Below, piece by piece: positions 37,184-44,593 of a stretch of DNA of 64,000 bases (within the stretch, counting starts at the first letter, position 1; each line of letters opens with the position of its first letter). Made by a program: the position numbers and the translations under genes. Source of the DNA: Diabrotica undecimpunctata (lineage: Eukaryota > Arthropoda > Insecta > Coleoptera > Chrysomelidae); the NCBI RefSeq assembly GCF_040954645.1, contig NC_092813.1, forward strand, positions 17,524,136-17,588,135, written 5' to 3'. The notes beneath the pieces are model-generated. The model had not been told where the DNA came from, did no database searches, and saw only the letters and a program-made list of their open reading frames with translations.

Positions 37184-37802
37184 AAAGGGCGGACAGCTGG
37201 GTTGGTACAGAGAGCCATAAAACGGGGTCAAATGTACCACTTGCCTGCGCATTTTAGGTCTCGGTAACAATTTTCAAACTGATTTTATTATGATATTTTT
37301 ATACCGATTGATTTGAAAATTTGTATGCTCACTTCTGTTACTATTCTGAGAAGCGTCAAGTAGAGTTTTCCTCAAAATTTTCCAAAAAAAATTCCGTAAT
37401 TTTTTGAGGTAAAATCTAATTTATAGAATCCTTTCGATTTTCTGTAAGTTATACCATGATTTTTTTCCAAAAATTTTCAAACGATTTTTACGATAAGAAA
37501 AAAATATTAGAAAAACTTTTCTAAAACATTTGATAAAACTCTACGTCATCGTCTGAATCTTTTATAGAATATTTTGTAGTTTTAAAATGATATTATGATA
37601 ATGTTTTTTTTTTCAAACTAAAGTCATATTTACTTTACAAATCACATTTTTTTCTTAAATATAAATATTTTACGAATTAATTTTTAATTGAATAAATGTT
37701 TGATATTTGATATTTTATTAAATTAAAGTAATTTTATAATGTTAACTATTAAATATTTTTGGTATAACAAATAGTAATTTTACTTATTTTTTATTACAAT
37801 AA
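37184..37802. other. A+T-rich interior of the long-inverted-repeat element
   Basis: No ORF. Ends in the target-site duplication TTATTACAATAA (37791-37802) of the nested Jockey element. Confidence 0.5.
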
Positions 37803-38032
37803 TAATAAATAAAAAATAAAATAAAAATAAAAACGTTTATTGCCATTCTAAGATATTTACATTTCAAAACTTAAGATATTTTAGCCTTCTTTCTTCCTCG
37901 ACGTCCCGCTCGTGCACCGCCAGCTCTTGAAGATTTCTCCTTTCGGTTCCTGGATTTTCCTGGGTGGTGTCCTCGTCTGCTTCTGTAGGTACTAAAATCG
38001 GCAAACGTACCTACTTCCCTGCACACGCCTGG

Positions 38033-40726
38033 TTAGACCCTGATCAGGTGGTCGATCAGTCTATGGGTGGATCTGTGTATCCTCTGGATCCTGTTCTTCT
38101 CGAGGATATCCCTGGTCTTTCGCAGTCTTCGAGTGGCCTGGTTGAAGAACCACCTGGTTCTGTTCTCGGCCACTTCCCTTAGTGGCGTGTATCCTAACCT
38201 GTTCTTGATTGTAGCATTCGTAACTCTATCCTCCCATGCTGTTCCGTCGATGATTCGGTAGCATGAGTTTTCAGTTGCTTCCAACTTTTTCCAGTGTGAT
38301 TCCGCAATGGAGCTCCACACTGGAATAGCATACAGAATCACCGACCTAACATATGCTTGGTAGAGCTGAATTTTCTTCGCCTTCGAGAGTGGACTGGACC
38401 TAAAAATGAAAGGAAGTATTAGTTTTTTAGCTGCATTAGCTTTTACCTTAGTTTTTTGTGTATGCACCCGGAAGTTGAGTTTTCTGTCGAGGTGGACTCC
38501 TAGGTATTTGACCGTCTCTGTTTCCTGAATTCTGTTGTCTCCTACTGTGATCTGTTTCCGTAGTTTTCGTCTATCCTGGCCGAAAATGATGAACTGCGTT
38601 TTTTCGGCGTTGATCTTAATTTTCCATTTTTCGGTGTAGTCCGTGATTCTTTCCAGGTGGCTCTCCATGTTATCTATGATTCTTCTTTCGTCTTTTCCGG
38701 ATGCATACACTGCTGTGTCGTCTGCATACAGGGCTGTAGAAGTCCTTGGATCTGTAGGGAGGTCTGAAACAAAAATGTTATATAAAATGGGTGATAAAAT
38801 GCTGCCCTGAGGCATTCCTTCCTGGATTTCTTGAATCGTCGACATCTTTTGGTCAGCTGAAACTTGGAATGTTCTATTAGATAGATACATGTCGCAGATG
38901 TTGATGAGGTAGTGTGGAAGTCTAGCCTTGTCCATCTTGTAGATTAGTGCCTTCTTCCAAACCGTATCGTAGGCTTTCTCTATGTCCAGTATGGCTAATC
39001 CTGTCTTCTGTTTCCTGTTGAATTTTATCTTCGTGTCGCTGATGATCCTTGCTAATTGGAGTTCGCAGTTTCTTCCTTTTCTGAAACCAAACTGGTCTTC
39101 TTGGATGACTCCTCTTCTTTCTGTATGCTTCACCAGTCTCTTGTAGATGATTTTTTCTAAGATCTTTCCCATCATTTCCAGGAGTGATATGGGCCTGTAG
39201 CTTTCCGGTCTTCTTCCATCTTTCCTTGGTTTCAGAAGAGGTATAATCTTGGCGTGTTTCCAGTTGTTTGGAAAATGTCCTTTTTCCAGGCAGTATTTGA
39301 AGATATAGTACAGTTGTACTATGATCTTCTTCGGAAGTTCCTTGAGGGTGATGTTGTGGATTCCTTCTTGTCCTGGTGCTCTGCTTCCTTTCAGTTTCCT
39401 GATGATTTTTGCAACTTCACTTGGGCTGATGTGGTCTTCTTCGTCTATTTGGAACTCGTTCCTTCTTCTGATCCTGTTGTATTCTTGCTCGACTTTCCTC
39501 TTTGTTCTTGCATCTGACATATCCTGGTTTTGTCTGTGTGTGGCTGCCATCTTCCTTGATATTGCATCAACTTTTCCTTGGGTGTCGTAGTGTGTTCCCT
39601 CGTTGTCCATGATTTGTGGCATCTTTTGTTTTCCTCTTCTTCTTGCCTTCAGCATTTTCCAAACGTTTCCATGGTTTTCTTCAGCTCTTCTGATGTTGTT
39701 GTGCCACTGGTTTTCAGTAAGACTTCTCAGTCTTACTCTTATTTCTTCGGATAGGATGTCTCCGTAGTCCTTGAATTCCTGTCTTCTGGTTCTTTGGAAT
39801 GCTCGTCTGGCCTTGTTTCTATCCTTGATGATGTCCTGTAGTTCTGTTGGGATGATCAGTCCTCTGTTGTTCGTCATGGATTTTGGGATGTTGGCTTCCA
39901 TTGCTCGTTGGATTCTTCTTGTGATTTCTTCGATCTTTTCTTCCACTTCTTCTGTTGATTGGAATTCTCTCTTCATTTCCATTTGGTTTAGCTGTCTTCT
40001 GTAGTTAGGCCAGTTAGCATCTTTCCATCTCCATCTTTCTACTGGTTCTATCCTTGGCAAGTCGACTCTCGATGTCATCCTTCCTATTACTGGTTTGTGG
40101 TCCGAACTGCATTCGAAGTATGTTCTGACGTCTTCCATTATTACATCCTTGGTGATGAACAGGTCCAGTGTTGAGTTGTTGTGTTCTCTTATTGGATTGA
40201 TCCTTGTTGGTTCGTCTGGAGCGAATAACATCCTATCTCTGTCCTCGCAGTATCTTAGTAGAGTTGTTCTTGGTGCTGTGTCCGTCATACATCCCCATGC
40301 TGTGTGTTTGGCGTTGAAATCTCCTGCTACGACTACGGTTGGTGCAGAGTTAAGTAAGGCATCCAGTTCTTCTATGGCTAGTTCTTCCGAGTGTTTCCTG
40401 TAAATTGAAAAAATATTAGCTATACCTACTTTGATTCCAACACTTTCGAAGTGGTGTGTGTCTATCAAAACTTGATTCCATTCTATGTTGTTCTTAACAT
40501 AGATGGCTACTCCTCTGTCGTTTGGTTCGTCTCTTCTTCCGAATCCATCGTAGTTTGTTATTCTTGGAAGTTGGGATTCCGTCATGTATCTTGTTTTAGA
40601 CAGGCATATGACATCTGGGTTATGTCTTACCACTGTCTCTCGAAGTTCGCTGATCCTTAGCCTCAATGATGCTATGTTGAACTGGAGAATCTTCAGGTGT
40701 TTATGGTTCATTGTAGATCTCTTCAT
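38033..40726 (-). CDS. ORF2: endonuclease-reverse transcriptase of Jockey element
   Basis: 897 codons, no stop. Endonuclease, residues about 10-230: LQFNIASLR (Asn17), DVICLSKTRYM where the catalytic Glu of 'CLxET' is Lys44, VVVAGDFNAKHTAWGC (Asp/Asn), NNSTLDLFIT, SSDHKPV. RT, about 440-720: SRAPGQEGIHN, ESYRPISLLEMMGKILEK, DQFGFRKGRN, LAILDIEKAYDTVW, GMPQGSILSPILYNIF and ALYADDTAVY. After it come VKYLGVHLDRKL, YVRSVILYAIPVWSS (thumb) and a C-terminal tail. ORF2 nicks the target and primes cDNA synthesis. The RT looks intact, but Glu-to-Lys at the metal-binding site should abolish nicking unless the family differs here. The gene starts inside ORF1, suggesting re-initiation or frameshifting. 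Confidence 0.95.
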   Translation of the reverse strand: MKRSTMNHKHLKILQFNIASLRLRISELRETVVRHNPDVICLSKTRYMTESQLPRITNYDGFGRRDEPNDRGVAIYVKNNIEWNQVLIDTHHFESVGIKVGIANIFSIYRKHSEELAIEELDALLNSAPTVVVAGDFNAKHTAWGCMTDTAPRTTLLRYCEDRDRMLFAPDEPTRINPIREHNNSTLDLFITKDVIMEDVRTYFECSSDHKPVIGRMTSRVDLPRIEPVERWRWKDANWPNYRRQLNQMEMKREFQSTEEVEEKIEEITRRIQRAMEANIPKSMTNNRGLIIPTELQDIIKDRNKARRAFQRTRRQEFKDYGDILSEEIRVRLRSLTENQWHNNIRRAEENHGNVWKMLKARRRGKQKMPQIMDNEGTHYDTQGKVDAISRKMAATHRQNQDMSDARTKRKVEQEYNRIRRRNEFQIDEEDHISPSEVAKIIRKLKGSRAPGQEGIHNITLKELPKKIIVQLYYIFKYCLEKGHFPNNWKHAKIIPLLKPRKDGRRPESYRPISLLEMMGKILEKIIYKRLVKHTERRGVIQEDQFGFRKGRNCELQLARIISDTKIKFNRKQKTGLAILDIEKAYDTVWKKALIYKMDKARLPHYLINICDMYLSNRTFQVSADQKMSTIQEIQEGMPQGSILSPILYNIFVSDLPTDPRTSTALYADDTAVYASGKDERRIIDNMESHLERITDYTEKWKIKINAEKTQFIIFGQDRRKLRKQITVGDNRIQETETVKYLGVHLDRKLNFRVHTQKTKVKANAAKKLILPFIFRSSPLSKAKKIQLYQAYVRSVILYAIPVWSSIAESHWKKLEATENSCYRIIDGTAWEDRVTNATIKNRLGYTPLREVAENRTRWFFNQATRRLRKTRDILEKNRIQRIHRSTHRLIDHLIRV

Positions 40727-42143
40727 ACTTCATGAAAACCATTGCTTTTTCAGCAAATGATTTTGCTTGTAATAGTTCTTTCTTCATATCCTGAAGAATT
40801 GCCATCATTTTTTGGACATTAACTATTTCGTTAATTTCCGCCCAGGTGCTTTTGACTCCATCATTCCTTGGTGTCTGTTGTTCTCCTTTGCTTGCTTGTG
40901 CATATGATATGCCACTAGAGATCTTCCTGAATGTTGATGGATGGGGCGCTGGTGGAGCTGTCTTCTGAGGCTGGTTCCTCGCTCTTCTTGCTGCCTGTCT
41001 ATCGAGATATTCAATGTGCTTGCTGCACATGGGATAGTTGGAAGTGTGTGCCTCCTGGCAGTTGCAACACTTCACTTTATTTATCTGTCCTTTCGGCAGA
41101 GGGCAGTGTCTCGTTTGATGTCCATTAGCACACTTCATGCATCTGGGCTGCTTGAAGCAATTTCTTGCTGAGTGTCCGAACTCCTGGCAGTTGTAACACT
41201 GCGTTGCCCTGGAAGGTTTGGAGTAGGCGTCCCATTTCACTCTGATGTTTTGCACTCCATTAATTTTCTTAATCTCCTTTAAATCTTGCTGTTTGTCGAC
41301 TTGCAGTAAGTAGGAGCTGCTTTGTGCTCCTGGCTTCCTGGTTTTAAGTTCGGTAACTTTTCCGATTATGCCTTGCTCTCGTAGATCAGCTTCGACCTCG
41401 TCGAGGTCCATTCCTGGAGCCGCCTTCATGACAATTTTCTTCGTAACCTCAGACTTCTTTGTGAAGGTATGGAAGGCCGTAGAGGTTGAGATGAAGTCCT
41501 GTTTTAATTTTTCGTAATCTTCGTTGGTCCTAAGGTACACCCTTGTACCTGCTTTTCCGGACGGTGATATCTGAAAGTTATTGTGCCCCAATAACTTCGT
41601 GATTTCTTTGATGAAAGTTGAGTAACTCCCTATTTGTCCTGCTATGACAAGGGGAGGTACCCTTTCTTTCCTGTTGTTGGCTGTTGGAGTGGCTTCTTCC
41701 GTGTCGACTGTAGTTAAAACTTGATAACGGTTTTTAGTTGTAACCGTTCCGCTAGTTGTTGGTCGCTGTCTTGCACCTGCGATGTTTTCGTGGGAGTTTC
41801 TTCTTTGACATTTAACTGCTTGGAAGGGTTCCTCCTCCATGATTTCAATATTGTTGGAAGCCATTGTTGCTGTGGTTTCTTCTACTGAATTTTCGACTTG
41901 TCCTATTTCGGTATCTTGTAACTGTTCCTTATCCTGGGCGGGTCCACCTCTCCTTGAGGTGGGCCTGAAGCTTCTATTCTTGAATAGTTTCCTGTGTAGT
42001 GGGAATTCTCGTCTTATTGGACTGGAAGCTGAAATTAGATCTGCAATTTTATTAGTAATAACAGTTTTATCGTCTTTTTTAGTCTTGAAAAAGACTAAAT
42101 CAGAGATATCCTGATTTTTCTTACATGAGAACAATTCAGTCAA
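40701..42143 (-). CDS. ORF1 (Gag-like) of Jockey element, three zinc knuckles
   Basis: 480 codons, open. Basic, disordered N-terminal third; central part like PRE_C2HC-type ORF1 domains (SSYLLQVDKQQDLKEIKKIN, VRVKWDAYSK-like), then three CCHC-type knuckles: CYNCQEFGHSARNC, CMKCANGHQTRHC and CCNCQEAHTSNYPMC (about residues 327-385). The C-terminus has a helical stretch (MMAILQDMKKELLQAKSFAE). ORF1 coats the element RNA and forms the ribonucleoprotein with ORF2. Its start at 42143 lies downstream of the hairpin array. The last 26 bases overlap ORF2 in another frame. Confidence 0.95.
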   Translation of the reverse strand: MTELFSCKKNQDISDLVFFKTKKDDKTVITNKIADLISASSPIRREFPLHRKLFKNRSFRPTSRRGGPAQDKEQLQDTEIGQVENSVEETTATMASNNIEIMEEEPFQAVKCQRRNSHENIAGARQRPTTSGTVTTKNRYQVLTTVDTEEATPTANNRKERVPPLVIAGQIGSYSTFIKEITKLLGHNNFQISPSGKAGTRVYLRTNEDYEKLKQDFISTSTAFHTFTKKSEVTKKIVMKAAPGMDLDEVEADLREQGIIGKVTELKTRKPGAQSSSYLLQVDKQQDLKEIKKINGVQNIRVKWDAYSKPSRATQCYNCQEFGHSARNCFKQPRCMKCANGHQTRHCPLPKGQINKVKCCNCQEAHTSNYPMCSKHIEYLDRQAARRARNQPQKTAPPAPHPSTFRKISSGISYAQASKGEQQTPRNDGVKSTWAEINEIVNVQKMMAILQDMKKELLQAKSFAEKAMVFMKYEEIYNEP

Positions 42144-42431
42144 CGTAAACCGTTCAGTTTACCGCCGACTGGATTGGGTTGGGGTAGCTGTTTTGTTGCC
42201 GAGAGGGGGCATTTGGGCCTGTAGGACCCATCGCCGGCTCTGCGGACTTCTTCCTGTCCTCGGAATTAGACCGGGTGTTGACCATCTTTGCTTGTCACTG
42301 ATAAAATGGTTTAATACTGCTACTGGTATAAAATAACGGTTACCGTGACAAGTATCTGTTATAGGTAACAGTTCCAAGGAGCAGTTACAAAATAACTGAT
42401 CAAAAATAGAAAACAGAACAGGTAAAATAGT

Positions 42432-43123
42432 CTAAGTATTCCTTGACTTACGGAAGGAATAACTTAGTAAACAAGAACAATAAAATGGTATAAAAGTACA
42501 ATGCAAAGAAAATGTTTCTAAGTGTTTCTTGACTTACGGAAGAAACAACTTAGAATTAAAAGTAAAATACACAAGATAAAAGAATAGAAAAGTGCAGAAA
42601 TATTCCTAAGTGTTTCTTGTCTTACGGAAGAAACAACTTAGAGTAAAAACAAACAAGAGAATCAAATATGGAAAAATAAGAATACAAATACTTATAAGTG
42701 TTTCTTGACTTACGAAAGAAACGACTTACAAATACGAAAAATCAAATACAGAAAAGATGTGAAAATATTGCTAAGTGTTTCTTGACTTACGGAAGAAACA
42801 ACTTAGCATAAAATAGAAAGGAAAAAAAAAACAAATTATTAAGTATTTTCTTAACTTAAGGAAGAAAATATCTTAGATAAAATATCGGAAATAATAATGC
42901 AACAATGATTATGAAAATATTTCTATGTGTTCTTTTGACTTACCGGAAAAGAACGGTTTAGACGCACAATTAAAATAACAAGTCAAATATTCAGAGAAAT
43001 ATTTCTAAGTGTTCTTTGACTTACCGGAAAGAACTACTTAGACAAAGTACAAATCAAAATATAAAATAGAAAAAGCAAGATAAATATTTCTAAGTGTTCT
43101 TAACTTACGGAAGAACAACTTAG
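42432..43123 (-). repeat. Array of nine covarying hairpins with GUAAGU loops
   Basis: Units (plus coordinates): 42432-42467, 42518-42553, 42606-42641, 42695-42728, 42771-42806, 42840-42876, 42923-42961, 43005-43041, 43090-43123; start-to-start spacing 69-89 bases. Each reads CTAAGT + arm + loop + inverse arm + ACTTAG. The arms differ but stay paired: ATTCCTT/AAGGAAT, GTTTCTT/AAGAAAC, GTTCTTTT/AAAAGAAC, GTTCTTT/AAAGAAC, GTTCTT/AAGAAC, TATTTTCTT/AAGAAAATA. In RNA sense the loop is CCGUAAGUC or CCGGUAAGUC; GUAAGU is present in seven of nine (GUAAGA in the third, UUAAGU in the sixth). The sequence between units is A-rich and not conserved. Confidence 0.9.
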
Positions 43124-43377
43124 ACACAAAATACAAGAAAAATAAACAATCAAAATAATCAAATAAAATATCAAACAATCAGTACATGAACAAATATAGA
43201 TCAATGTATTATTCTAACCTGAAAAGGTCTGAATATACAATAATGCTAAAATAAAAAGGTATACAGAAAATCAGAAATAAAACAATAACTTAGTTGGAAC
43301 AATAATAGCACCGACTAGGTCTACAGTAGAAGAGGCAAGCTCGACTGACCGATGAGAGAAAATCTACCTGCTTTTAT

Positions 43378-43400
43378 GTAAAACAAATCCTTTGTTTTAC
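43378..43400 (-). repeat. Perfect hairpin upstream of the array
   Basis: GTAAAACAAA-TCC-TTTGTTTTAC: 10-bp perfect stem and a 3-base loop, directly followed on the plus strand by TTAG, i.e. it also touches a CTAA motif in sense. Possibly a diverged tenth unit. Confidence 0.7.
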
Positions 43401-43618
43401 TTAGCGAAAGTGGAATTTCCCTGCATCGAATCAATTAGAAATTTGGATTTGGCCAACCTTGGAATTCCCAAGTATTTTAACCGATATCCAAATTCCTTGA
43501 TGCGTCGAGGACAGTTTGACGTCAGTCGCTCGGACCTAAGCCAAGAAGCAGGAAAATAGACTGTGATACTATGGTCAACCTTCCAGTTGCGAGTCTCACC
43601 GTCTACTTATTACAATAA

Positions 43619-43982
43619 AAAGGTTTTTAAATTTATATTGCATAAATAATGGTTGTTCAGATATAAGAAAAATTTGATTTATTATTACATTAATAATCAA
43701 ATACAAAATATATTATTTCTATTTATCAATAGGTAAAATTCAATTTGTAGAATTCCTTTAACATTTTACAAATAATTATTAATAAAAATCAATTTAATAG
43801 TGGAATTATCAATTTTTTAAGTTTTGAAATTTACTTTGTACTTAGATATTTTCAATATTTTTTTTAACTTTCAAATTGATTGAATTTTTTTTTCATTAGT
43901 TAATTATAATTTTACAAATGTTGTTTGGACATTAATTTTGCATCATTATTATTTTAAAATATTAAAATAATAATGATGCGCG
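43619..43982. other. Interior of the long-inverted-repeat element with palindrome
   Basis: A+T-rich. 43940-43979 is an exact palindrome: GCATCATTATTATTTTAA, loop AATA, and the inverse (18-bp stem). It lies just in front of the transposase-like remnant. Confidence 0.7.
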
Positions 43983-44593
43983 TTCCATTTAGATCAGTAA
44001 TTCTAGACGCATGCGCTAAATGTAATAAGTATCAAGATGCTTTTATCCAACTTGGTGAAACTGACTTCGATTGTAATGAAGTTTTTGAAACCTTAGAAAC
44101 TTTCATATGTCACTTATATGGAACATGACTGACGAGAACAATTCCAAAAAGAAAAGTAAACGATGTCAGATTTTCATTATTTAACCGGCAGTATAAGTTG
44201 CATGATATGAACGAGCCTTTTAAAAAAAAACTAAAAAATTTCGATGTTTCAAGCTTACCACCATGTCAAGATGAATTACACCAACATCTACTGCGAGCCC
44301 ATTATATTTCAAATATTTGGACAAATGCTCATAAAAAAGTACCAACAGAATTGATTGTTGAAGAACATGGTTGGGAGTTTGAAGATGAAACATATAAATT
44401 CAAATGGTTTAGTGGACCTCAGATGCCAGAATCAATTCGAAAAGTAGTGATTGAAAATGAAGCAGATAATGAATGTGATATTATTGAAAGTGAAAGTGAC
44501 GAAGATGATGAATGTGATCACATCAGTGAGAGTGAGAAAAAAGATGAAATTTTTATTTTTCTGTTGGATTTAGAGTTTTTAGGGGCTAAATAA
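43983..44593 (+). pseudogene. C-terminal remnant of an unknown transposon protein
   Basis: The first part reads AKCNKYQDAFIQLGETDFDC and NEVFETLETFICHLYGT, then TGA (44128), then in the same frame VRFSLFNRQYKLHDMNEPFK, VSSLPPCQDELHQHLLRAHY, ISNIWTNAHKKVPTELIVEE and HGWEFEDETYKFKWFSGPQM, followed by an acidic tail. From memory this 'LPPC...HLLRANY..IW..A...P......HGW' wording is common in unnamed insect and cnidarian transposon-associated proteins. I cannot name the superfamily. The end of the gene runs into the right inverted end. Confidence 0.55.

Follow-up and report, generated by a model that had tools for sequence, protein, structure and literature searches.

A covarying tandem array of hairpins in the predicted leader of a beetle Ty3/Gypsy LTR retrotransposon, and its possible role in docking

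The stretch of DNA analysed here, called the window below, comprises 64,000 nucleotides of contig NC_092813.1 of Diabrotica undecimpunctata. On its minus strand lies a Jockey-like LINE whose leader is interrupted by a solo LTR of a Ty3/Gypsy retrotransposon, and it is this LTR that holds a tandem array of nine hairpins. The elements at the locus are as follows.

37803..43606, minus strand: Jockey-like LINE whose leader contains the LTR, bounded by a 12-bp duplication, TTATTACAATAA, at 37791-37802 and 43607-43618
38033..40726, minus strand: LINE ORF2, with endonuclease and reverse transcriptase domains
40701..42143, minus strand: LINE ORF1, with CCHC zinc knuckles
42190..42193, minus strand: target-site duplication AAAC on the 3' side of the LTR
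42194..43513, minus strand: solo LTR of a Ty3/Gypsy retrotransposon, 1,320 bp, TGTCC...CAACA, holding the array (from empty sites in LINE copies and LTR pairs elsewhere)
43514..43517, minus strand: target-site duplication AAAC on the 5' side of the LTR

The surrounding LINE resembles the Jockey-clade LINEs with a type I ORF1 (RRM plus CCHC) as portrayed in PMC4120745, with the difference that it is not the owner of the array. An RRM in its ORF1 is hinted at by a low-confidence structure model only (mean pLDDT 50), and the predicted ORF1 structure has no PDB match at E≤0.001.

The first-pass annotation had placed the array in the 5' UTR of the LINE. Comparison of 30 LINE copies whose ORF1 matches at 99-100%, the window's own copy (L031) included, rules this assignment out. 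Because leader position 93 runs directly into position 1414 in 19 of the 30 copies, leader positions 94-1413, array included, represent an insertion; the empty site reads ...GACGTCAAACAGC... in L034, L038, L040, L042 and L060. Nine other copies carry different inserts, L033 is not judgeable, and only at the window locus L031, not among the remaining 29, was the array LTR found. The case illustrates how a nested solo LTR may be mistaken for a LINE 5' UTR. Similarly, the open reading frame beginning MVNTRSN, considered as a frameshifted start of LINE ORF1, was rejected as such and is the gag of the LTR element.

The inserted piece recurs outside LINEs. In a DNA search of the 1.74-Gb genome, matches over the array among the 40 of 1,137 first-look candidates that were scored were 92-100% identical, with one partial match at 78%. 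Paired LTRs lie 5,854-5,915 bp apart in L003/L004, L005/L006 and L007/L008, the latter two pairs looking like one duplicated insertion, and a target duplication ATAT flanks L003/L004 and L005/L006. A primer-binding site (PBS), TGGCGCCCAAC, follows the LTR in 10 loci, with the match extending to 18 nt in L028, and a polypurine tract, AGAGGAGGGGGGA, precedes it in L006, L008, L017 and L067. One end of the internal region encodes a Ty3_capsid domain (E 2.2e-8, above cut-off), and a match to rve (integrase) has an E of 1.4e-7, 0.4 bit under the curated cut-off, in a partial sequence. We assign the element to the Ty3/Gypsy LTR class because of the paired LTRs, the TG...CA ends, the target duplication, the PBS, the polypurine tract, the capsid and the integrase; by these sequence features the owner of the array is a Ty3/Gypsy LTR retrotransposon, whose internal region is known from its ends, the middle ~2 kb aside. 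There seems also to be a second LTR subfamily that begins TGTCAGCCGGGAGCTGACAGCCGTGCC (with variants) instead of TGTCCTC (L010, L014, L022, L029, L030). At L017, protease-like sequence lies at most ~1.2 kb from the 3' LTR, and this locus appears to be a deletion derivative.

Within the LTR, the array occupies positions 391-1082, between a predicted promoter and the start of gag.

43371..43377, minus strand: TATA-like ATAAAAG, predicted core promoter, LTR position 137 (prediction)
43344..43348, minus strand: initiator-like TCAGT, predicted transcription start, LTR position 166 (prediction)
42286..43347, minus strand: predicted untranslated leader, nearly without AUG on the sense strand only
42310..42315, minus strand: ATTAAA, candidate poly(A) signal (motif)
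42194..42285, minus strand: gag start MVNTRSN..., inside the LTR (position 1229), 3' of the array

ATAAAAG and TCAGT, 29 bases apart, are presumed here to serve as a TATA-like motif and an insect-initiator-like motif, respectively; a longer string around the former is found in 31 of 31 LTR copies and the exact string of the latter in 16 of 31. The sense strand of the LTR contains no AATAAA. In four of the five copies read, L015 being the exception, the gag frame continues without a stop past the LTR end and the PBS, and a gag search from this start inside the LTR gave at least 125 scored matches, 83-100% identical, among 5,840 first-look candidates. A CCHC knuckle is absent from all frames over ~460 codons from the gag start in the six copies tested. 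A search of the protein collection found two Gag relatives, both from Diabrotica undecimpunctata. These two (P0050 and P0051, 79-85% identical) are annotated as 'activity-regulated cytoskeleton-associated protein-like' and look like transposon Gag.

On its sense strand the predicted leader is nearly free of start codons. From the predicted start to the gag AUG it contains 2 ATG, where dinucleotide shuffles would give 11.6 (1 in 3000 shuffles as low); the antisense strand has 13, with 15.0 expected. The same depletion is met in 14 of 16 diverged leaders (L088 and L090 were left out of this scoring), which contain 0-3 ATG against 9.0-12.9 expected, each reached by at most 1 in 500 shuffles, with the antisense strand not depleted; since these 14 leaders are related to each other, they do not count as independent tests. 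The depletion holds down to LTRs of 76-78% identity. The gag start itself carries AAAGATGG in the window LTR and in most of the diverged leaders inspected.

The nine hairpins are listed here from the first to the last in the RNA.

43090..43123, minus strand: hairpin u9, first in the RNA
43005..43041, minus strand: hairpin u8
42923..42961, minus strand: hairpin u7, outer stem eroded in the window copy
42839..42876, minus strand: hairpin u6, loop UUAAGU
42771..42806, minus strand: hairpin u5
42694..42729, minus strand: hairpin u4
42606..42641, minus strand: hairpin u3, loop GUAAGA
42518..42553, minus strand: hairpin u2
42432..42467, minus strand: hairpin u1, last in the RNA, stem AUUCCUU/AAGGAAU

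Nine near-identical stem-loops had been proposed for 42432-43123, and they are indeed present there in minus-strand sense, with start-to-start distances of 70-88 nt. The covariance model built from the nine units recovers all of them on the minus strand at E<1e-7; within the 64-kb window it found neither a tenth unit (the next minus-strand match has an E of 1.5) nor a second array elsewhere, and its weaker plus-strand matches are the palindromes of the same units. In RNA sense a unit reads CUAAGU-U-GUUUCUU-CCGUAAGUC-AAGAAAC-ACUUAG. Six base pairs make up its outer stem and 6-9 its inner stem; a single base is bulged on the 5' side, and the loop measures 9-10 nt. Unit length varies between 34 and 39 nt, so that the spacing between the outer arms is not constant. 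The presence of three stop codons per hairpin was set aside as a feature expected from composition. An Rfam search over 37500-44000 returned only a chance-level match outside the array (E 0.48), and neither the hairpin pattern nor LINE ORF1 had a match among viral contigs.

All nine inner stems are perfectly paired, and when the 3' arms are permuted among the units this remains true of every inner stem in 24 of 362,880 permutations. In the nine-unit alignment 94.0% of the cells are paired; the figure falls to 88.2% after shuffling (a value as high was reached by 0 of 500 shuffles) and to 32-53% with the partner slid along, while the number of pair types is no higher than in shuffles (5 vs 5.0). 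Three inner pairs are altered on both sides, and the inner stems differ in length, from 6 to 9 bp, with pairing retained. Folding energies surpass those of at least 97% of dinucleotide shuffles for eight units and of 93% for u7, whose outer stem is largely broken in the window copy; on the sense strand, single hairpins have stabilities of -5.4 to -10.5 kcal/mol. The loop contains GTAAGT in seven of nine units, GTAAGA in u3 and TTAAGT in u6, leaving UAAG as its sole invariant part. Between units, the hairpins share 82% pairwise identity (48% when shuffled), against 68% (51%) for the first 12 nt of the spacers and 56% (54%) for their remainder. These spacers are U-rich and, compared with shuffles, not significantly less structured (111 of 500).

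The array is not a private, recent amplification of one copy, an eventuality that the first-pass annotation had raised against its own reading. Among 50 non-redundant LTR loci (57 minus 7 segmental duplicates), 49 carry arrays of 6-14 units, over a range of identity reaching down to 76-78%. A first set of 44 loci comprised 32 with an array (8-14 model matches each), one with a single marginal match and 11 with none, as expected for loci without the array LTR; 15 of 16 diverged 5' LTRs have 6-12 units, and the cut LTR L090 has 1. Across the 50 loci most arrays count nine units; L067 and several of the diverged LTRs have ten, L079 has 12, L087 has 6, three loci have 8, and L002 has 14, which arose by internal duplication. 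A few of the counts of 10 or 12 include weak chance matches. The last unit of L067 has the window's stem, and a seeming exchange of two pairs in unit 1 of this locus was discarded as a misalignment. Since units come and go, equivalence of units across diverged LTRs is a judgement of the alignment.

When the window LTR is compared with L081 and L089, both 78% identical LTRs, inner stems are 95-96% and loops 91-92% identical, against 76-77% for the spacers, 80-81% for the outer stem and bulge, 85% for the 5' part of the leader and 81-83% for the part after the array; at 95-98%, U3 is about as conserved as the inner stems or more so. Taken over 22 of 31 copies of the family (eight near-identical copies and L067 left out), per-site diversity amounts to 0.012 for inner stems, 0.027 for outer stems, 0.030 for loops and 0.067 for spacers, with values of 0.019-0.031 elsewhere in the LTR. 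On this shorter scale, only the inner stems change more slowly than the rest of the LTR and the spacers change faster, with loops and outer stems no slower than the rest.

Pairing was claimed to persist through changes in the stems, and the other copies uphold this. Among 66 distinct 36-nt hairpins (92 distinct 36-mers minus 26, namely 12 of u9 type, 11 of u6 type and one of u7 type in another register, and two false matches), four pairs covary, and 36 cells are changed on both sides; shuffles give 9.7 such cells (36 was reached by 0 of 500) and slid controls 0-7. Neither covarying pairs (4 vs 3.4) nor pair types (14 vs 12.6) are more numerous than in shuffles, which ignore relatedness. At the u5 position, CUAAGU/ACUUAG alternates with ACAAGU/ACUUGU between the window and diverged LTRs, and the u4 position shows GUAAGU/ACUUAU, AUAAGU/ACUUAU and ACAAGU/ACUUGU, together with ACAAGU/ACUUAU, one pair broken, in L089. 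At the u3 position a C-G in one LTR stands against a U-A in another, and in most copies u8 has A-U where other units have U-A, the window u8 being without this A-U. Within single copies, 36 of 54 changed stem cells break a pair, as in dead elements. Read in sense, G-U outnumbers A-C by 27 to 11 cells, or by 24 to 8 if only intact rows are considered; when each distinct pair and type is counted once, the ratio is 9 to 8, and therefore the strand is not readable from the pairs alone. As far as the aligned copies report it, the pairing of the stems is kept by compensatory change, also among diverged LTR copies.

We consider the array most likely to be a selected RNA structure in the leader of the element, because it occurs in 49 of 50 loci, because its stems and loops outlast the spacers, because the stems show two-sided changes and because the AUG loss is restricted to the sense strand. 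To our knowledge, the choice of their own RNA by animal LTR retrotransposons is poorly known, outside of yeast Ty1/Ty3 and the retroviruses. As to what such a structure does, our proposal is tentative, made with somewhat less than even confidence: the array may be a cis-acting element of the leader (R-U5) of the Ty3/Gypsy retrotransposon that works as a multivalent docking array, with Gag as the likeliest ligand and a host RNA-binding protein next. The leader RNA, whose start site and R/U5 border are predictions, would fold into about nine hairpins set apart by U-rich spacers, and the hairpin repeats would act jointly. Each unit would be recognised as a hairpin, since fold and loop are kept while the spacers are free, and the number of units would matter, since the hairpin is repeated. 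By analogy, we would place first as ligand the element's own Gag, which has a Ty3-type capsid and, over the part that was read, no CCHC: an LTR element has to pick out its genomic RNA, and the array adjoins the PBS and gag. With several Gag molecules bound, this RNA would be marked for packaging and could be shifted from translation to assembly; a host RNA-binding protein would be the second choice. Put more broadly, the leader of this retrotransposon may carry a multivalent array of tandem hairpins, of natural origin, by which the genomic RNA is marked through recruitment of the element's own Gag or of a small RNA of the host, either U1 or the primer tRNA-Lys; we rate the chances of this as a little short of even. 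Our searches, confined to open-licence literature, turned up no description of a comparable array in any LTR retrotransposon. Whatever its ligand, a covarying repeated hairpin with a conserved loop, in arrays that vary naturally from 6 to 14 units, is a ready test object, and a single short hairpin could be used to capture Gag, proteins of the host or small RNAs.

Several known systems share some of these features. The gypsy insulator, located in the part of that element transcribed at its 5' end, is built of roughly a dozen repeats separated by AT-rich spacers, and these repeats are DNA sites for a zinc-finger protein; the likeness lies in a repeat array within the leader of an insect LTR element, and the difference is that the gypsy repeats are not covarying hairpins. 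The phage MS2-type operator has one bulged base and a conserved loop, and artificial tandem arrays of it bind coat protein multivalently. The beetle hairpin likewise combines a bulged base with a conserved loop, but its array is natural and its loop is another one. The packaging regions of retroviruses and Ty3, 5' leader stem-loops to which Gag binds, resemble the predicted beetle leader in having structured hairpins that adjoin gag and the PBS, whereas the beetle array consists of some nine near-identical tandem hairpins inside the LTR. According to a review of Ty1/Ty3 encapsidation, packaging of Ty3 requires the NC domain and its zinc finger (PMC4974528), in contrast to the beetle Gag, without CCHC in the stretch read in six copies, and the PBS of Ty1 is located in the GAG ORF (PMC4974528), to which the beetle gag, beginning in the LTR and reading through the PBS, bears a likeness; the beetle element differs from Ty1 in its Ty3-type capsid and its integrase domain.

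The strongest rival to the docking array, a serious one though in our estimate unlikely, is base pairing between the GUAAGU loops and the 5' end of U1, by which the genomic RNA would be kept unspliced or early polyadenylation would be stopped. The bias of the loops towards this motif, noticed initially in the window, extends across the copies: GUAAGU is found in 365 and GUAAG in 388 of 449 loops (those with an arm of at least 6 among 455 matches, a few false matches included), and L081 and L089, 78% identical and lacking a u6-type unit, have GUAAGU in nine of nine loops each. With the sequence that we took for the U1 5' end, most loops form a 6-bp run and u7 and u8 form 7 bp, and array loops make up seven of the ten best U1 sites within the window LTR, headed by u7 and u8. 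GU stands at +1/+2 in eight of nine window loops (UU in u6), but position -1 is C rather than G in seven of the nine, u6-type units carry UUAAGU (at least 42 loops), and the 6-bp duplex of most loops amounts to just -5.7 kcal/mol. The array is, moreover, present in both LTRs, so that it alone could not distinguish between the 5' and 3' poly(A) sites; nor does pairing with U1 need a covarying stem. A second small RNA to be considered is the primer tRNA, if the UAAG of the loop kisses the anticodon loop of tRNA-Lys(CUU) and so gathers the primer near the genome. The PBS TGGCGCCCAAC of the 10 loci fits what we take to be the 3' end of this tRNA, UAAG is the sole invariant part of the loop, and the u3 and u6 loop variants each add one pair to its presumed anticodon loop. 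Such a contact would comprise 4-5 bp only, however, a match equalled by 7.9% of random 9-nt loops and 3.0% of shuffled consensus loops, and although the presumed 3' end has 507 matches, ARAGORN called a tRNA in none of the 12 places examined; we regard tRNA capture as highly improbable.

A role in translation, in which an AUG-poor leader is scanned and the hairpins pace the scanning, permit shunting or bind a translational repressor, would also agree with two observations: the window LTR, like 14 of its relatives, has lost AUG from the predicted start up to that of gag, and AAAGATGG recurs where gag begins, both in the window LTR and in most of the diverged leaders inspected. We find this quite unlikely, considering that the hairpins are individually weak, at the stabilities given above, and that pacing alone leaves the invariant UAAG loop unexplained. 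The confinement of the AUG loss to the sense strand speaks, in turn, against an element acting at the DNA level, that is, palindromes bound as DNA by a dimeric host factor in a promoter, enhancer or insulator, comparable to the case of the gypsy 5' leader. An RNA palindrome is also a DNA palindrome, both strands fold alike and the TAAGT core is conserved, yet the arm spacing differs by unit (34-39 nt), unlike a rigid site for a DNA-bound dimer, and the inner arms are free to vary if paired, so that this explanation, too, appears improbable to us. Perhaps the arms are kept paired without selection, by tandem duplication together with hairpin-templated correction of the palindromes. The variation in unit number from 6 to 14, the expansion of the array in L002 and loops as variable within the family as the rest of the LTR would all fit an array without function. 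But the loop letters kept across units and across diverged LTRs in which the spacers are saturated, as well as the AUG loss, would then go unexplained, and we hold absence of function to be very unlikely.

Lastly, irrespective of the role of the array, the insertion site deserves some attention. The LINE leader site at 43514-43517 / 42190-42193 is likely to be an integration hotspot. Ten of the 30 close LINE copies, the window included, as well as L063, L064 and L067, have inserts at or within ~2 bases of one leader nucleotide; apart from the window, the insert-bearing LINE copies are L032, L035, L036, L037, L039, L046, L049, L051, L056, L063, L064 and L067. The inserts sit just 3' of TGACGTCA and have ends of the form ...ACA or TGTC.... 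In the window, L032 and L049 both ends of the insert are visible (TGTC...ACA with AAAC on each side), and the three are unlike sequences; for the remaining inserts one end only is visible. In the older LINE copy L067 (G000:C11:5216730-5218480), the AAAC site used in the window is likewise occupied by the array element, here by a 3' LTR with the polypurine tract ahead of it. We note also that the 285 nt of the window at 43322-43606, which unite LINE leader positions 1-93 with LTR positions 1-192, fold at -91.0 kcal/mol compared with -67.7 kcal/mol for shuffles (0 of 200), and that this stable stretch includes a long hairpin near the start of the LTR.
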